From the NCBI RefSeq assembly GCF_002355735.1, contig NZ_AP014879.1:2170001-2234000 (forward strand): a DNA stretch of 64,000 bases. The letters run 5' to 3'. Both the position numbers and the translations under genes were made by a program. Positions 2,532 to 51,025 of this stretch are shown one piece after another (position 1 is the stretch's first letter; every line of letters begins with the position of its first letter). The stretch is from Sulfuricaulis limicola (GTDB lineage: Bacteria > Pseudomonadota > Gammaproteobacteria > Acidiferrobacterales > Sulfurifustaceae). Under the pieces are notes generated by a model. That model saw nothing but the letters and a program-made list of their open reading frames with translations, ran no database searches and had not been told where the DNA came from.

Positions 2532-3005
2532 ATGAGCAAAAAGAAAGACGATACGCCCAATCCCGTCATCGCCCAGAACCGCAAGGCCTGGCATGATTAT
2601 TTCATCGAGGACAAGTACGAGGCCGGGCTCGCGCTGCAGGGCTGGGAGGTCAAATGCCTGCGCGCCGGTCGCGCGCAGCTGAAAGAAGGCTACGTGGTCA
2701 TTGATAACGGCGAGGCCTTTCTGGTCGGCGCGCATTTCTCGCCGCTGACGTCCACCTCCACCCACATCAAGGCGAATCCCGTGCGTTCGCGCAAACTGCT
2801 GCTGCACCGCCTGGAGCTGAACAAGCTGATCGGCGCCACCGAACGCAAGGGCTACACCCTCATCCCGCTGCGGCTCTACTGGAAACGCGGCAATGCGAAA
2901 CTCGAAGTCGGTCTCGCCCGCGGCAAACAGGCGCACGACAAGCGCGCCGACATCAAGAAGCGCGAATCCGACCTGGAAATGCGGCGCGCGCTCAAAAACC
3001 GCTGA
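2532..3005 (+). CDS. smpB: SmpB, tmRNA-binding protein
   Basis: 157-aa SsrA-binding protein, the obligatory partner of tmRNA in rescuing ribosomes stalled on broken mRNAs. The family marks are all there: N-terminal [14 protein letters not shown], the [10 protein letters not shown] core, the AHFSPLT strand, and the basic C-terminal tail [10 protein letters not shown] that becomes helical in the ribosomal decoding centre. Length matches the family (about 155-160). It stands in the conserved smpB/ratA/ratB/bamE neighbourhood. The cognate tmRNA gene is in the same window at 10302-10965. Confidence 0.97.
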
Positions 3006-4126: not shown

Positions 4127-5244
4127 CAGACGAGCTCCTTTTTGAACACGCGCACGGCGAGGAACAGTCCGATCGCGGCGAACAGGACCATGAGCAGGCC
4201 CTGGACGTACAGCACTTCGACCCCCACCCCCTTCAGGAATATTCCGCGCGTCACCACCAGGAAATAGCGCGCCGGGACCAGGTAAGTGACGAGTTGCAAA
4301 GCCTTCGGCATCACCGTGATCGCATACATGAACCCGGACAGCAGCACGGCCGGCAGGAAGGTCGCCAGCATCGCCACCTGGGTGGCCAGCAACTGCGAGC
4401 GCCCCAGCACCGAGAACACGATGCCGAGCCCGAGTGCACCGACCAGGAAGAAAAACGACAGCACTATGAACAGCGCCGGATTGCCGCGAAACGGCACGCC
4501 GAACAGGAACATGCCAAGCAGCGATATCAGCACCATGTCGATCAGCCCGATGGCGACGTACGGCAGCATCTTGCCCAGAATCACCTCGACGCGCGACACC
4601 GGCGTCGCCGCCAGCTGTTCCATGGTGCCGCGCTCCCATTCACGCGCAATGGTCGTCGCCGTCAGCATCGCCGACACGATCATCATGATCATGGCCACCA
4701 GTCCGGGGACGATCATGTTGCGTGACACCAGTTCCTCGTTGAACCAGACACGGGTCTCGGCACGCAGCGGCAGCGTGACCTGTTTGCCCTGCAACTGAAC
4801 ATTGAGCGAATAGGTCTGCACGATGGCACGTGCATAATTGAGGATGATGGTCGCGGTATTGGCGTCGCTGCCGTCGACGATCGCCTGCAGTTCCGCGGAT
4901 TGCCCGGCGTTGAGATGCGAAGAAAAATCAGGCGGGATCACCAGCACCAGCTGCACCGAAACCCCGTCGAGCAGCGGCGCGATCTCGGAGGCGCTTCTGA
5001 GCTGCCGCTGGAACGTGAAATAACCTGAAGAACGGAAGGCCTCCAGTAATTCGCGGCTCTGCGCCGATTGATCCTGATCCAGCACCGCGGTCTTGATGTT
5101 CCTGACATCCCAGCTGATGGCGTAGCCGAAGATGATCAGCAGTATCACCGGCAGCAAAAATGCCAGAATCAGGCTGCGCGTGTCGCGTCGCAGCTGGATC
5201 GCCTCCTTGCGGGCCATGGCCATTAATCGTCCAGGATTGATCAT
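4126..5244 (-). CDS. ABC-2 type permease, YbhS-like
   Basis: 372-aa paralogue of the neighbouring permease with the same topology: one N-terminal membrane segment (about residues 24-44), a periplasmic domain containing the DGSDANTA motif, and a C-terminal block of five segments. The coupling motif reads REWERGTMEQLAATP. The two permeases should form the membrane heterodimer of the exporter. It is separated from the upstream ATPase gene by 110 bp that hold an inverted repeat (5279-5341), the only sizeable gap in the operon. Confidence 0.88.
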   Translation of the reverse strand: MINPGRLMAMARKEAIQLRRDTRSLILAFLLPVILLIIFGYAISWDVRNIKTAVLDQDQSAQSRELLEAFRSSGYFTFQRQLRSASEIAPLLDGVSVQLVLVIPPDFSSHLNAGQSAELQAIVDGSDANTATIILNYARAIVQTYSLNVQLQGKQVTLPLRAETRVWFNEELVSRNMIVPGLVAMIMMIVSAMLTATTIAREWERGTMEQLAATPVSRVEVILGKMLPYVAIGLIDMVLISLLGMFLFGVPFRGNPALFIVLSFFFLVGALGLGIVFSVLGRSQLLATQVAMLATFLPAVLLSGFMYAITVMPKALQLVTYLVPARYFLVVTRGIFLKGVGVEVLYVQGLLMVLFAAIGLFLAVRVFKKELV

Positions 5245-10289: not shown

Positions 10290-10392
10290 GTGAACGTTCT
10301 TGGGGGTGACCTGGTTTCGACGTGGGTCACGAAACCTCTGGGGCATGCCGAGGTGCCGATCTCCTCGTAAATCCAGCGGCAAACACATAGTT

Positions 10393-10425
10393 GCCAACAA
10401 CGACAACTACGCCTTAGCGGCTTAA
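10393..10425 (+). other. tmRNA tag reading frame
   Basis: Resume codon GCC at 10393, ten sense codons ANNDNYALAA and a TAA. With the alanine carried by the tmRNA the tag is AANNDNYALAA, differing from the E. coli tag (AANDENYALAA) at the fourth and fifth positions; the YALAA end is the ClpXP/ClpAP degradation signal. The upstream ATAGTT context also fits the usual resume-site neighbourhood. Confidence 0.95.
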
Positions 10426-10639
10426 TCCCCGCTAACCTTTCCGCCCGAGTTTCGCCCGTGGGCTGGGATGGAAAGGTCGATCACACGGGATCGCGCCGGC
10501 TCGTGCCTGTTGAGCAAGCGTTAAATCCAAGCAGGCTCAGCTCAGCAGTGGTCCTGTCTGCCGGAACACGCTGAGTCAAATCAAAGACAGACTACGCATG
10601 TAGAACCATGGATGTAGGGCTTGCGGACGCGGGTTCGAT

Positions 10640-10948
10640 TAGTAATTTGGTCGCCTCTGTTCGTAAGAGCAGAGTGAAAACGGGGCTCATTCGGCGAACC
10701 CTGACGCCATCGAAAGATGGCATGGCAACGCCGAGGGGTAGCGAAGGGCCAACCTTCCCTGCCCTGTAGAGACTCATAGACTTGCTGAAGAGTTATAGCT
10801 CTGGAGCAGGCACTAGGATTCGCAAACCTCTCATCCCCTCTCCCGCTTGCGGGAGAGGGTTAGGGAGAGGGGGAGCGAATAACACGCCCCGCATCCGGAA
10901 TCGGATGAAGGCATAGTCCAGGCCGCATCGAAAGATGTGGATCAACTG
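10640..10948 (+). ncRNA. Group I self-splicing intron in the tmRNA T-loop
   Basis: A complete catalytic core can be drawn. P1 pairs exon CGAU plus intron UAG with UUGGUCG (10647-10653), giving the U-G pair at the 5' splice site. P2 is CUCUG / CAGAG (10655-10674). P3 is CGGGGC (10681-10686) with GCCCCG (10886-10891). P4 is CGGCG (10692-10696) with CGCCG (10729-10733). P5 is GCCAUC-GAAA-GAUGGC (10706-10721). P7 is GACU-c-AU (10771-10777) with AUAGUC (10913-10918), including the usual bulge. P8 is CAUCCG / CGGAUG (10892-10906). P9 is GCAUC-GAAA-GAUGU (about 10925-10938). The last intron base is G (10948), as group I introns require. No homing endonuclease frame fits inside. Confidence 0.93.
10836..10859. 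repeat. Intergenic-type hairpin repeat inside the intron
   Basis: CCCTCTCCCGC at 10836-10846 pairs perfectly with 10849-10859, and a further GGGAGAGGG copy follows (to about 10873). This looks like the dispersed CCCTCTCCC...GGGAGAGGG repeat common between proteobacterial genes. It sits between P7 and P3' of the intron, a peripheral position where extra domains are tolerated. Confidence 0.75.
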
Positions 10949-10970
10949 TCCCGCCACCTCCACCAGCAAG

Positions 10971-11007
10971 AAACCCCTGACCGGCAACGGTCAGGGGTTT
11001 TTGTTTT
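10971..11007 (+). terminator. Rho-independent terminator of ssrA
   Basis: Perfect 13-bp stem (10971-10983 with 10988-11000) closed by a GCAA tetraloop, followed by TTTTTGTTTT. It starts five bases after the encoded CCA of the 3' exon, so the primary transcript contains both exons and the intron. Confidence 0.95.
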
Positions 11008-11011
11008 ATTG

Positions 11012-11075
11012 GTCTAACGACTGAGCTAAGCCGCGCGGCGCCGTATGCCGCGTCGGCTTGAGCGCGTTGTTAGGT
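11012..11075 (-). repeat. attC recombination site
   Basis: 64 bp with R'' ACCTAAC and R' GTTAGAC at the ends. The inner arms GCGCTCAAGCCG and CGGCTTAGCTC pair with one extra C, matching the extrahelical base integrases recognise, and the centre CGCGGC...GCCGCG closes the fold. Length and layout match classical 60-bp attC elements. Confidence 0.9.
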
Positions 11076-11331
11076 GTGATAGCCCCAACAATTACGCCTT
11101 CTTTTTGCGATACATTGAGTGGGGCGAGTTTTTGACCCACTCAATAACTTTGTCTGCTGCTTCCGGACCTAGATCGACTTTAGCTAATACTTCTCTGATT
11201 TTGGCTTCGTCATGGACAAAAGCGGCCTTATCGAATTCCTCCATTAATCCCGCCTCGAAAAGGCGCTCATTAACGGTCATTGCGGAATAGGGACTATTGG
11301 GCTTATTTTCGTTTTCCATAAGGACACCTAA
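11018..11331 (-). mobile_element. Single integron gene cassette
   Basis: Read on the minus strand, a GTTAGGT core site (11332-11326) stands six bases before a short gene, and an attC site (11075-11012) follows the gene. The attC begins with ACCTAAC, exactly complementary to the GTTAGGT at the other end, which is what a circularised cassette requires, and ends with the partner core GTTAGAC. The unit is 314 bp. No integrase gene and no second attC are next to it, so it is an isolated cassette. Its outer end abuts the ssrA terminator. Confidence 0.88.
11092..11319 (-). CDS. Cassette-borne small protein of unknown function
   Basis: 75-aa acidic/basic mixed soluble protein, no signal peptide or membrane segment. 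The middle (VNERLFEAGLMEEFDKAAFVHDEAKIREVLAKVDLG) is predicted mostly helical and the end is lysine-rich (YRKKK). I do not recognise the family with certainty; short cassette proteins of this kind are common in environmental integrons. A possible ribosome site, AAGGAC on the complementary reading, is only weakly visible (GTCCTT precedes the ATG). Base composition is lower in GC than the neighbours, consistent with transfer. Confidence 0.75.
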   Translation of the reverse strand: MENENKPNSPYSAMTVNERLFEAGLMEEFDKAAFVHDEAKIREVLAKVDLGPEAADKVIEWVKNSPHSMYRKKKA

Positions 11332-11495
11332 CTAAAAGTAGACGGCCTAAATGTCGCTTTATAAAGCGACAAAGTACTGTATATCCATGCCGTATATCAG
11401 TTTGGTTTCTGATAGATCAAAGACTTATCGAATTTTAGTACCGCCTAATAGAAAACAGCAAACACGACACTGGAGTTATGCCGCTCACTAACTCA

Positions 11496-11576
11496 CGTAG
11501 GGCGCAATAGGCGGAGCCGTATTGCGCCGAATGGAACCACATCCGGCGGAATACGCTATCGCTATTCCGCCCTACG
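11496..11576. repeat. GTAGGGCG...CGCCCTAC bounded repeat
   Basis: About 81 bp bounded by the inverted ends CGTAGGGCG and CGCCCTACG and containing GCGCAATA / TATTGCGC and GGCGGAATA / TATTCCGCC sub-repeats. It belongs to a widespread class of small intergenic repeats in Proteobacteria. Related elements in this window are at 32665-32744 and 56332-56415. It fills most of the gap between the cassette and the cytochrome-b gene. Confidence 0.75.
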
Positions 11577-11581
11577 AGTTA

Positions 11582-13507
11582 TCAATTTGACGTTTGTATG
11601 ACTTCGCCACCCTGTCCCTTGATATGCGGCGCAAAATTGAAGGCATCGGAGAAGCAGCGGTCCTCGGTCATGCCCTTTTGAAGGAACGCCGCGTGCGCCG
11701 ACTCGACCATGCCCACCGAGCCGCAGGCATAGACCTCGCAGCCGGTCATGACCGGGAAATCATGCAAAATAGCCGCGTGCACCGTGCCCGTGCGCCCGGT
11801 CCAGTTGTCCCCGGGTGCCGGTTCGGACAGCACCGGAATGAATTTGAAATTGGCGTGTTCGCGCGCCCAGCGCTCGGGCAGCTCCTTCATGTAGAAATCG
11901 CCTACCGATTTCACGCCCCAGTACAGATGCATCGGGCGCCGCAGGCCGGCGTGGAACGCATACTCGACCATGCTTTTCACCGGCGCGAAGCCGGTGGAAC
12001 CGGCAACAAAAATGATCGGCCGGTCCGAATCTTCGCGCAGATAGAACGATCCGAGCGGCCCCTCGCAGCGCAGGGTGTCGCCGGGCTTCATGGCGTTGAA
12101 CACGTACGTCGTGAAGGCGCCGCCGGGAACCAGCTTGACGTGCAGCTCGATCAATTCGGATTCGTGCGGCGCGGTGGCGAAGGAGAACGCGCGCCGCTCG
12201 CGGTCCTCGAGCACGATATTGATGTACTGCCCGGCGTGGAAACGGATGGGCTCCGGGTCGAGCGGCTTGAGCATTACGCGCATGACGTCAACCGTGAGCA
12301 ACTCCTGTTGCTCCACCCGCGCCATGAAAGTGCGGATCGGGATGTCGCGCACCACGCCGATGTTCTCGCATTCGAGATCGAGATCGGACAGCGGCGTGGC
12401 GCAGCACATCAGGGCCTTGCCGGCGCGCCGCTCTTCCTCCGTCAGCGCGCTTTCCTGGTAGGCGCCGTGATCCACGCTGCCCTGCAGGACGGTGCACTTG
12501 CATTCGCCGCAACCGCCGCTGCGGCACTCGAACGGCAGCGCGATGCCGGCGCGCAGGCCGGCTTCGAGGATCGACTCGCCCGGATGCGCCACGACAATGT
12601 CATCGCCGGGACGAAGCGTGAGCCGGAACCCTTTGGCGGCGCGGCGCACCGGTGGCAGCCACGGCAACAGTACCAGCAGGCCGGTGCCGCCCAGCACCAG
12701 CCACCATGTTTTCTCCGGCGACCAGGCATAAATCAGCGGGAAGACCGCCAGATAAAACCAGTCGAACTTCAGATCGGTAATCACCGTGTCCAGGTTCGCC
12801 GGGCCCTGGCTCAGCACCGGCCACACCAGGCTGAGAACGATCAGCGCCAGCAGCAACGGCAGCGCCAGCCGGCGCGGCGGGTTGGTCTCGGCCCTGGCCA
12901 CGCGCTGCGTGTGCACCCACAGCACCAGCAGCAGCATCAGCGAGATGCCGATGTGCATGAAGGCCAGCAGCGAGAACAGGCGGTCGTTGACGCTGCCCTC
13001 GTGCAGGAAATTGCGCGCCATCGGCTCGGAGAAAATCGGCAGCCAGTCGAGCCACTCCGCCGTCGCGATGGTGATGAATTGCGCCAGCCGGTCCCACGGC
13101 AGCATGAAGCCGTTGATGCCGGAGGCATACACCAGCCACAGCACGAACACCCCGGTCACCCAGGAGAACCAGCGAAAGCCGCGGTAGTGATCGAACGCGA
13201 AATGGCGCAGCAGGTGCAGCCCCATCGCCAGCACCATCCCGTCCGAGGCGTAACGGTGCAGGCCGCGCATGATCTGCCCGATATAAAAATGATAGTGCGT
13301 GATGCGCTCGACCGAGGTATAGGCCTCTTTCACGCCGGTATCGAGGAAAATATACAGATACACGCCGCTCACCACGGCGATCCAGGTCATCAGGTAGGCG
13401 ATGGCGCCCAGGTGGTAGAGCGGGTTGAGCCGGTCCCCGAATACGAGATTGAACAGCTTTTCGAGGCGCAGAAAAAACCACTGCGCCGTCCGCCGCACAT
13501 AATGCAT
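11582..13507 (-). CDS. Cytochrome b / 2Fe-2S ferredoxin / flavin reductase fusion
   Basis: 641-aa three-part redox protein. Residues about 1-220 are a cytochrome b6-like membrane domain: paired haem-ligand histidines lie in MRGLHRYASDGMVLAMGLHLL and FMHIGISLMLLLVLWVH. Two more membrane segments follow (about 220-300). Residues about 300-390 are a plant-type ferredoxin with the cluster motif CRSGGCGECKC and a distant C in LMCCAT. Residues about 395-630 are an FAD/NAD(P) reductase with RAFSFATAP (flavin) and VAGSTGFAPVKSM (nucleotide). The likely reaction is electron transfer between NAD(P)H and the quinone pool through all three centres. The ATG at 13507 has GGGAG nine bases upstream; a perfect FNR box is 66 bp before it. 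Confidence 0.87.
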   Translation of the reverse strand: MHYVRRTAQWFFLRLEKLFNLVFGDRLNPLYHLGAIAYLMTWIAVVSGVYLYIFLDTGVKEAYTSVERITHYHFYIGQIMRGLHRYASDGMVLAMGLHLLRHFAFDHYRGFRWFSWVTGVFVLWLVYASGINGFMLPWDRLAQFITIATAEWLDWLPIFSEPMARNFLHEGSVNDRLFSLLAFMHIGISLMLLLVLWVHTQRVARAETNPPRRLALPLLLALIVLSLVWPVLSQGPANLDTVITDLKFDWFYLAVFPLIYAWSPEKTWWLVLGGTGLLVLLPWLPPVRRAAKGFRLTLRPGDDIVVAHPGESILEAGLRAGIALPFECRSGGCGECKCTVLQGSVDHGAYQESALTEEERRAGKALMCCATPLSDLDLECENIGVVRDIPIRTFMARVEQQELLTVDVMRVMLKPLDPEPIRFHAGQYINIVLEDRERRAFSFATAPHESELIELHVKLVPGGAFTTYVFNAMKPGDTLRCEGPLGSFYLREDSDRPIIFVAGSTGFAPVKSMVEYAFHAGLRRPMHLYWGVKSVGDFYMKELPERWAREHANFKFIPVLSEPAPGDNWTGRTGTVHAAILHDFPVMTGCEVYACGSVGMVESAHAAFLQKGMTEDRCFSDAFNFAPHIKGQGGEVIQTSN

Positions 13508-50561: not shown

Positions 50562-50713
50562 TGCCATTACCCCCCAATCTTGGCCGGGCAAGGATTCCGG
50601 AACGGGTGGGCGACGACACGGATGGGCGTGAGGCGGGGTTACGGAAGACGGCAGCCGCGTGGGCGGAACAGCGCTGTGGCTCTGCCTGCTTCCTTGCCTG
50701 GAATGTTGAGTTC

Positions 50714-50793
50714 CGGCAAACCCGCTGTCATAGGGCCCATGCCCCTTAGACCGGTATCTTTGCGTCCACGGCCTTTCGGCCGGGGTAGCCATT
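50714..50793 (-). ncRNA. Cyclic di-GMP-I (GEMM) riboswitch
   Basis: Read on the minus strand: ATGGCTACC, the P1b hairpin CGGCC-GAAA-GGCCG with GNRA tetraloop, then the strongly conserved TGGACGCAAAGATACCGG and TCTAAGG, a second hairpin GGGGCATGGGCCC, and the closing CAGCGGGTTTGCC. These are the c-di-GMP-I aptamer elements in order, with GGC/GCC and ACC/GGT pairing the ends. About 150 bases separate it from the barrel gene start at 50561. The neighbouring PAS-GGDEF gene upstream on the same strand would make the ligand. I cannot decide from reading alone between c-di-GMP and cGAMP specificity. Confidence 0.9.
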
Positions 50794-51025
50794 TACAGAA
50801 CTTGCAACCCATGACAGCGTCCTTCCCTGTCATGCCCTAGATATAAAGCAACTAGCGTGCCAGCCGGGCGCGGGTGGAAACCCCGTGTATTTCCGGGAGG
50901 TTTTGCAATATTGCAGGCGGGACGAACAACCTGGATGTTGTCGAAGTGACGTTTCAGGGGAACTGGCCCGCGGGACGAAGGGGCGGTTGAAGGCGTTTCG
51001 GCAAGGCTCGCCGACAGACTGGAAT

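Follow-up and report, generated by a model that had tools for sequence, protein, structure and literature searches.

The ssrA locus

A single ssrA (tmRNA) gene lies at 10302-10965 on the + strand of the window, the whole 64-kb stretch of DNA analysed here, and it is split by a 309-nt insert. The parts of the gene and the features associated with it are as follows.

2532..3005, + strand: smpB, the protein partner of tmRNA (PF01668, E 3.5e-57)
10302..10639, + strand: ssrA 5' exon, ending in GCGGG TTCGAT (RF00023, 186.4 bits; ARAGORN after in-silico splicing)
10640..10948, + strand: group I intron of 309 nt, with a terminal G at 10948 (RF00028, 37.8 bits; model R2, 127 bits; covariation)
10949..10965, + strand: ssrA 3' exon, TCCCGCCACCTCCACCA, comprising loop nucleotide 7, T-stem, acceptor strand and CCA (from the sequence; completes the tmRNA for ARAGORN)
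10966..11004, + strand: terminator-like hairpin and T run of ssrA (from the sequence; the endonuclease gene of relatives begins past the hairpin)

The Rfam tmRNA model aligns with 10310-10641, and its alignment stops in the T-loop. ARAGORN reports no tmRNA in the unspliced DNA of the window; when 10640-10948 is removed, it reports a standard tmRNA with the tag ANNDNYALAA, as well as a second, overlapping permuted call with the same tag. The insert lies between nucleotides 6 and 7 of the T-loop; a U precedes it (TTCGAT^T), and its last nucleotide is G. This site is 'position 7' as the numbering is read from the figure legend of PMC11915505, and in the available part of that paper it is the commonest site. 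An insert at T-loop position 7 and exons that rebuild a tmRNA identify intron-form tmRNAs, and the window ssrA has both. The acceptor stem of the spliced molecule, which the first-pass annotation had called perfect, is indeed re-formed by the exons over 7 bp, but its third pair is a G.U. We take this to be the usual alanine identity pair and not a defect.

When the whole ssrA gene is used as a query against the genome, it gives one match, and 14 other rows are short matches to a REP-like repeat; no second ssrA was found by this whole-gene query. The gene for the protein partner smpB lies nearby, as the first-pass annotation had said. Elsewhere in the window, a c-di-GMP-I riboswitch is found at 50712-50800 on the - strand (68.6 bits).

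Structure of the intron

What kind of element is the insert? The helices assigned to it are listed below, with the support that they receive from an alignment of 79 introns: percentages are alignment cells that are paired, and fractions are base pairs with changes on both sides unless otherwise stated.

10636..10653, + strand: P1, exon CGAU (10636-10639) with IGS GUCG (10650-10653), U.G at the splice site (four pairs in 79/79 introns)
10655..10674, + strand: P2, 8 bp, GUAA loop (7/8; 94.1%)
10681..10686, + strand: P3 5' strand, partner 10886-10891 (4/6)
10691..10765, + strand: P4-P5-P6 domain, with P4 at 10691-10696/10729-10734 (99.2%) and P6 at 10735-10741/10759-10765 (87.7%)
10771..10777, + strand: P7 5' strand GACU[C]AU with a bulged C, partner 10913-10918 (99.8%; 5/6 pairs invariant)
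10781..10810, + strand: P7.1/P7.1a (9/10)
10818..10880, + strand: P7.2 stem, 10818-10823/10875-10880 (6/6)
10824..10874, + strand: REP-like palindrome in the P7.2 loop (found at 19 other genomic sites, E <= 2.8e-4; absent from L009, L010 and L015)
10892..10907, + strand: P8 (3/6; 73.2%)
10923..10940, + strand: P9, GAAA loop (6/7)

In the alignment of 79 introns, 86.6% of cells are paired in the named structure; in shuffles, which do not keep relatedness, the figure is 69.2%, and on none of five measures does any of 500 such shuffles come up to the observed value. Both sides change in 50 of the 79 pairs of the named structure, and sliding the partners by one column lowers pairing from 86.6% to at most 47.1%. 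Changes on both sides are found in most pairs of P2, P3, P7.1, P7.2 and P9. P1 and P7 are nearly invariant and therefore uninformative by covariation; for P1, the pattern used to fetch the introns also fixed its letters. P5, P5a and P6a are badly aligned, with 43.7%, 61.8% and 48.4% of their cells paired, respectively.

Two covariance models place the insert among group I introns. RF00028 (Intron_gpI) matches 10630-10940 with an E-value of 2.5e-8 for the stretch, but its 37.8 bits fall short of the gathering score of 50; a default Rfam run over the whole window therefore misses the intron, and an E-value search of a short stretch is needed. Model R2 was built from the first 150 positions of 34 introns, leaving out the window copy and five others known from its order, and it finds the window intron from P1 to the P7 5' strand with 127 bits (E 1.4e-36); it has no other match in the 64-kb window up to an E-value of 10. 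The covariance-model search that the first-pass annotation had proposed was thus positive for both parts of the gene, with 186.4 bits for the tmRNA and 127 bits for the intron with R2, the 37.8 bits of RF00028 being below gathering.

The window ssrA is therefore interrupted in its T-loop by a group I intron, which its fold predicts to be autocatalytic. The conserved P3-P4-P6-P7-P8 core is present according to R2 and covariation (RF00028 giving only 37.8 of 50 bits), the U at position -1 pairs with G in P1, and the intron ends in G. This core and the exon-intron structure agree with the first reading of the locus, in which a T-loop group I intron of 309 nt had been drawn with the same boundaries, a U.G pair at the 5' splice site, a bulged P7 and a terminal G; RF00023, RF00028, R2, ARAGORN and covariation all bear it out. 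GNRA loops had also been noted, and they are present, but there are three (P2 GUAA, P5a GAAA and P9 GAAA) and not two. P7.1 and P7.2 both covary here, and their presence is what we assume to define the subgroup label IA.

Distribution of tmRNA introns

The first-pass annotation mentioned that tmRNA T-loop introns had been reported in other bacteria, and considered them rare. The reports exist: the available part of PMC11915505 describes 883 unique intron-form tmRNAs in 21 phyla, mostly at T-loop position 7, and attributes the first description of an intron-form tmRNA to its ref. 11. The rarity does not hold. With model R1, 20 of the 369 gammaproteobacterial genomes drawn evenly from the class reach 100 bits or more, and three others (G151, G172 and G228) match weakly. 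Nine of the 57 order genomes have intron-form ssrA, eight of them at 133 bits or more and one (G026) at 59 bits, confirmed by reading. Given the 883 published cases and the 20 matches in the class, the intron is of a known kind and is not exceptional in Gammaproteobacteria.

R1 reports 19 genomes in the order, ten of which have weak matches only (26-34 bits); G003 has an extra weak match as well. Of these 11 weak matches, the four that were read (L177, L181, L186 and L187) are group I introns as well, but located in the anticodon loop of tRNAs and not in tmRNA. L186 and L187 interrupt, by eye, tRNA-Leu with anticodon UAA. Since L187 comes from G003, this genome has two kinds of intron-bearing RNA genes.

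The window intron is an additional member of the known kind of tmRNA intron. It shares with the introns of PMC11915505, as far as the available part describes them, the gene, the loop, the main subsite and the boundary rules (U at -1 and a terminal G). The REP-like palindrome in P7.2 is a difference from those introns and a feature of the window copy. According to the same source, LAGLIDADG genes lie inside some tmRNA introns; an endonuclease gene is present in 36 of the 883 (4.1%), compared with 54% of archaeal rRNA introns. The available text makes no mention of an endonuclease gene outside the interrupted gene, whereas here such a gene is found beside ssrA in 46 of 77 loci.

The loci were collected by a pattern scan of a named genome collection, which gave 103 stretches; 15 without a recognised 3' exon were dropped, although five of these (L061, L080, L088, L104 and L119) look real. 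Eight introns from relatives were added, giving 96 loci with both ends, and the removal of six duplicates left 90 unique introns. Two metagenome bins in the collection, L108 (titled Nitrospira sp., with the same intron as order genome G034) and L090 (titled Klebsiella pneumoniae), carry intron-form ssrA of gammaproteobacterial type; judging by sequence, these titles may be wrong.

An endonuclease gene behind ssrA in relatives

In G002, an open reading frame of 155 aa (L009, 791-1255, - strand) lies behind the terminator of the intron-bearing ssrA. It contains the motif YIAGLIDGEG and matches the Pfam families LAGLIDADG_3 and LAGLIDADG_1. When 1400 nt downstream of each intron-bearing ssrA were searched by tblastn, with the G002 protein and two intron-internal relatives as queries, a same-strand, single-motif LAGLIDADG gene was found in 46 of the 77 unique intron loci whose downstream sequence extends to 700 nt or more; the other 31 have none. 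Among loci with shorter flanks it was found in 4 of 13, the remaining nine being too short to judge, which brings the total to 50 of 90. In 49 of these 50 loci the match starts 46-185 nt past the CCA; the exception is L014, in which a broken frame puts the start of the best piece further downstream. L077, from Bacillota, has a downstream copy in antisense orientation.

Is the endonuclease a functional protein? Its frame is open over nearly the full length in 32 of the 50 loci, and D23, G24, E25 and G26 of the LAGLIDADG motif are invariant in all 25 aligned members. In 10 of the 14 closest pairs dN/dS is 0.06-0.15, a rough estimate, as dS is mostly about 1 or above; it was not computable for the other four. 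The gene is open in most copies and looks selected. The AlphaFold2 model (pLDDT 91.4) finds its best solved folds with Foldseek in I-CreI (E 2.6e-8, TM 0.7), I-MsoI and I-CvuI, and I-MsoI is also found by profile. The predicted protein thus resembles these enzymes in fold, in size and in having one LAGLIDADG motif with its acidic residue, as expected of a single-motif LAGLIDADG endonuclease. It differs from them in sequence (19-28% identity in the Foldseek alignments) and in that its gene is outside the intron and its target is putative. NCBIfam gave no match to the four endonuclease proteins submitted. Broken frames occur: the gene of G003 has an in-frame stop and that of G011 is split between frames, as expected of a decaying homing gene.

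The endonuclease gene and the intron occur together. In the order, the gene is present in 6 of 57 genomes, all of them intron-bearing; the 48 genomes without a detected intron-form ssrA all lack it. A search of the 369 class genomes by protein alone finds it in 18. Of these, 16 carry the intron, 15 are among the 20 genomes with a strong intron match, and 17 have the gene beside ssrA. In 14 genomes it lies on the same contig and strand as the R1 match, 190-318 nt from its end. In G249 the contig ends within an intron, and the gene lies next to the remaining 3' end of it; in G091 the gene and the intron are on separate contigs. Only 2 of 348 class genomes without the intron have the gene (G136 and G070), in both cases broken and beside an intron-free ssrA. 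Fisher's test gives p 7e-20 for strong R1 matches alone and 7e-22 when G249 is counted, both uncorrected for kinship. As the protein-only search of 369 genomes gives this association, the selection of intron loci is not what produces it. No endonuclease was matched by a profile search of 398 phylum genomes, but with no positive-control genome among them this empty result does not speak for absence.

Not every intron has such a neighbour. The endonuclease is absent from the window genome, G013 and G034 in the order, and from the intron-bearing class genomes G000, G088, G146, G215 and G358. A profile search of 10901-12500 found no endonuclease remnant downstream of ssrA in the window. At 11012-11075, directly after the ssrA terminator and at the place taken by the endonuclease gene in relatives, the window has a sequence of the form GTCTAAC ... 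GTTAGGT, which to our eye resembles an integron attC site; a small open reading frame follows at 11092-11319 on the - strand.

As far as the open-licence literature shows, a free-standing LAGLIDADG gene just behind an intron-form ssrA is new. The available parts of PMC11915505, PMC3984707, PMC10448857, PMC11835236 and PMC13153191 make no mention of an ssrA-adjacent endonuclease, in a search whose scope was open-licence papers and took in few subscription ones.

Intron turnover and changes in the T-arm

The intron comes and goes among close relatives. On a DXS tree of 28 genomes, the supported branches force at least six changes of intron state among the 25 scorable genomes, and the intron label is no more clustered than shuffled labels. 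Within the genus, the intron-bearing G000, G002 and G003 are interleaved with five intron-free members. The same oxidoreductase-dxs genes lie behind ssrA in G000, G001, G002 and G006, which indicates that this is one locus; G004, G005 and G007 have a different neighbourhood there. The insert behind ssrA in G007 (L260, 11970-19565) encodes an Abi-like protein, DUF3375, DUF4194, an SMC-like ATPase and JetD, which make up a Wadjet-type defence system. In G070 (L285), there is a second ssrA 3' end with a terminator and an endonuclease fragment, as would be left by an integrated island.

The T-arm could be read in 45 of the 57 genomes of the order. In family f1, all six intron-bearing ssrA genes have the sequence GCGGG TTCGAT^T CCCGC and none is altered, while nine of the ten intron-free genes have an altered T-arm (GCGAG/CTCGC, GGCGG/CCGCC, GCGGG/CTCGC, or the loop TTCAAT). 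In other families, the T-arm is altered in 2 of 26 intron-free genes and in none of three intron-bearing ones; the second family in which the pattern was looked for has only two genomes. The Fisher p is 9e-4 within family f1 and 5e-6 between families for intron-free genes, where related genomes are not independent. In matched pairs, an altered T-arm goes with absence of the intron in four or five of six pairs (whole tree) or of five pairs (family), and never the reverse; with these few independent contrasts, the median p of a sign test is 0.125 for the whole tree and 0.0625, the lowest reachable, for the family. Because of the kinship among the genomes, the association is treated as a lead. 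An unaltered T-arm without the intron is found in G012, and likewise in G136 and G070, where endonuclease remnants are still present. Natural variants of the T-arm are carried by, among others, G001, G005, G006 and G016. In stems altered to GGCGG/CCGCC, P1 would not be weakened.

Intron-internal genes and viral contigs

Where might the endonuclease have come from? In L070, L116 and L133, a related gene lies inside the tmRNA intron in antisense orientation, and L075 has a remnant. Among the best 80 loci of a scan of viral contigs are L315 and L320, from two IMG/VR contigs of about 64 kb. Both encode a tmRNA with a group I intron in its T-loop, and inside each intron an antisense LAGLIDADG gene shares about 33% identity with the endonuclease. 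For L315 the Rfam tmRNA model scores below gathering, and the 3' ends of both were read by eye. Phage records contain only distant relatives of the endonuclease, at most 36.8% identical among the 20 of 27 matches listed, and no relative was found in a plasmid collection. Intron-form tmRNAs with an internal gene on viral contigs make phages possible carriers. L320 also contains a Pistol ribozyme at 4342-4409.

A proposed homing cycle at ssrA

In relatives of the window copy, the intron is linked to a LAGLIDADG gene and co-occurs with it, and it turns over among close relatives. The most probable explanation, to which we give about three chances in four, is a lineage of gammaproteobacterial tmRNA introns that are gained and lost among close relatives, with the endonuclease gene, in most members examined, outside the intron and a short way downstream of ssrA, in a cycle like that of collaborative homing. 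The intron would have to excise itself from the transcript to yield a working tmRNA, as its fold suggests, and its activity might then limit ribosome rescue, as the first-pass annotation proposed. A homodimeric, I-CreI-like endonuclease would cut the T-arm of intron-free genes; the stem of this arm is an inverted repeat. An intron-bearing copy, serving as the template for repair, would then supply the intron, and with it the endonuclease gene because it lies close by. Later the endonuclease would decay, and the intron would stay or be lost. The window copy may represent a late stage of such a cycle, with an intact intron, no endonuclease and a REP-like palindrome filling the P7.2 loop. Altered T-arms might act as resistance, and phages might carry the intron.

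In collaborative homing, as described in the available parts of PMC3984707 and PMC10448857, a free-standing endonuclease likewise adjoins a gene whose intron lacks an ORF. Such an arrangement is found in relatives, though not in the window itself, and intron and endonuclease are absent together from other relatives (the gene being present in 0 of 48 intron-free genomes in the order and in 2 of 348 in the class, both broken). These papers describe the process from phages; here it would involve bacterial chromosomes, an RNA gene, a LAGLIDADG enzyme and many families. The ssrA system is likened to collaborative homing and not classed as a member of it, as the defining cleavage at the insertion site is putative here. 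A fuller version of the homing explanation has, in our view, somewhat less than an even chance: a chromosomal two-part system in which an I-CreI-like endonuclease outside the T-loop intron reads the inverted repeat of the T-arm and sweeps through species, compensated T-stem changes alter both half-sites at once and give resistance to the drive, and phages with an intron-form tmRNA and an internal endonuclease ferry the system between hosts.

A neighbouring endonuclease gene would explain the continued mobility of tmRNA introns without an internal one. As the available descriptions of collaborative homing are from phages only, its origin and its cycle of gain, decay and loss could be tested across many genera if chromosomes provide a recurrent case. 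Possible resistance alleles of the T-arm would offer a natural test of a selfish element reshaping a conserved RNA.

Alternative explanations

Could the patchiness and the altered T-arms have another cause? Genomic islands that integrate in the 3' end of ssrA might swap the T-arm, the acceptor end and the terminator and delete the intron. Behind ssrA, G007, the sister of the intron-bearing G002, exceeds the window by about 9.5 kb of DNA, including the Wadjet genes, and it has two extra ssrA-like 3' ends with terminators in tandem beside ssrA (by eye) and a terminator unrelated to that of G002; the second ssrA 3' end of G070 is 8.4 kb away. However, G001 and G006 have altered T-arms without such an insertion behind ssrA, no phage integrase was found on the ssrA contig at distances of up to 75 kb from the gene in 16 genomes (several of the contigs being shorter than 20 kb), and islands leave the link between intron and endonuclease unexplained. 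We regard islands as a somewhat unlikely account of the pattern, and one that is compatible with homing. Intronless homing, in which the endonuclease parasitises the 3' flank of ssrA on its own and shares the locus without moving the intron, would fit the broken copies beside intron-free ssrA in G136 and G070 and the 31 of 77 introns that have no endonuclease. It sits poorly with the presence of the intron in 16 of 18 class genomes with the endonuclease against 5 of 351 without it, and with the fact that no intact endonuclease was seen beside an intron-free ssrA in the class sample. Relatives of the endonuclease also lie antisense inside the tmRNA introns of L070, L116 and L133 (with a remnant in L075), and distant ones (33% identical) in the introns of the two viral contigs. 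Independent parasitism is unlikely, and somewhat less likely than islands.

The palindrome of the window copy raises two further possibilities. The P7.2 loop holds 51 nt of REP-like palindrome, in place of the 4-nt loop of close relatives, and the stem with its insert folds at -38.8 kcal/mol. With such an insert in P7.2, the intron might no longer splice and ssrA might be dead; since the core helices, the splice-site U.G, the terminal G, the tag frame and smpB are all intact, and the whole-gene query found no second ssrA in the genome, this seems very improbable. It is more improbable still that the palindrome, rather than the intron, is the mobile part, as in an IStron-like unit. The palindrome has 19 other places in the genome, which also contains three Y1 transposase-like genes, and IStrons, according to the available parts of PMC4227781 and PMC3984707, resemble the window in combining a group I intron with IS200/IS605-type (Y1) genes. 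In IStrons, however, the transposase is fused to the intron, whereas the 309-nt window intron is too small for one and carries just a short palindrome; the three Y1 genes are at other genomic locations, and no repeat of the pattern tried was seen around them. As close relatives have the same intron without the repeat, IStron or REP-driven mobility was rejected.

Palindromes are also found in other tmRNA introns. Similar ones lie, by eye, within P7.2 in L069 and, in degenerate form, in L094, and a different long palindrome lies within P8 in L009, L015, L033 and L089. The peripheral stems P7.2 and P8 thus seem tolerant of such insertions.
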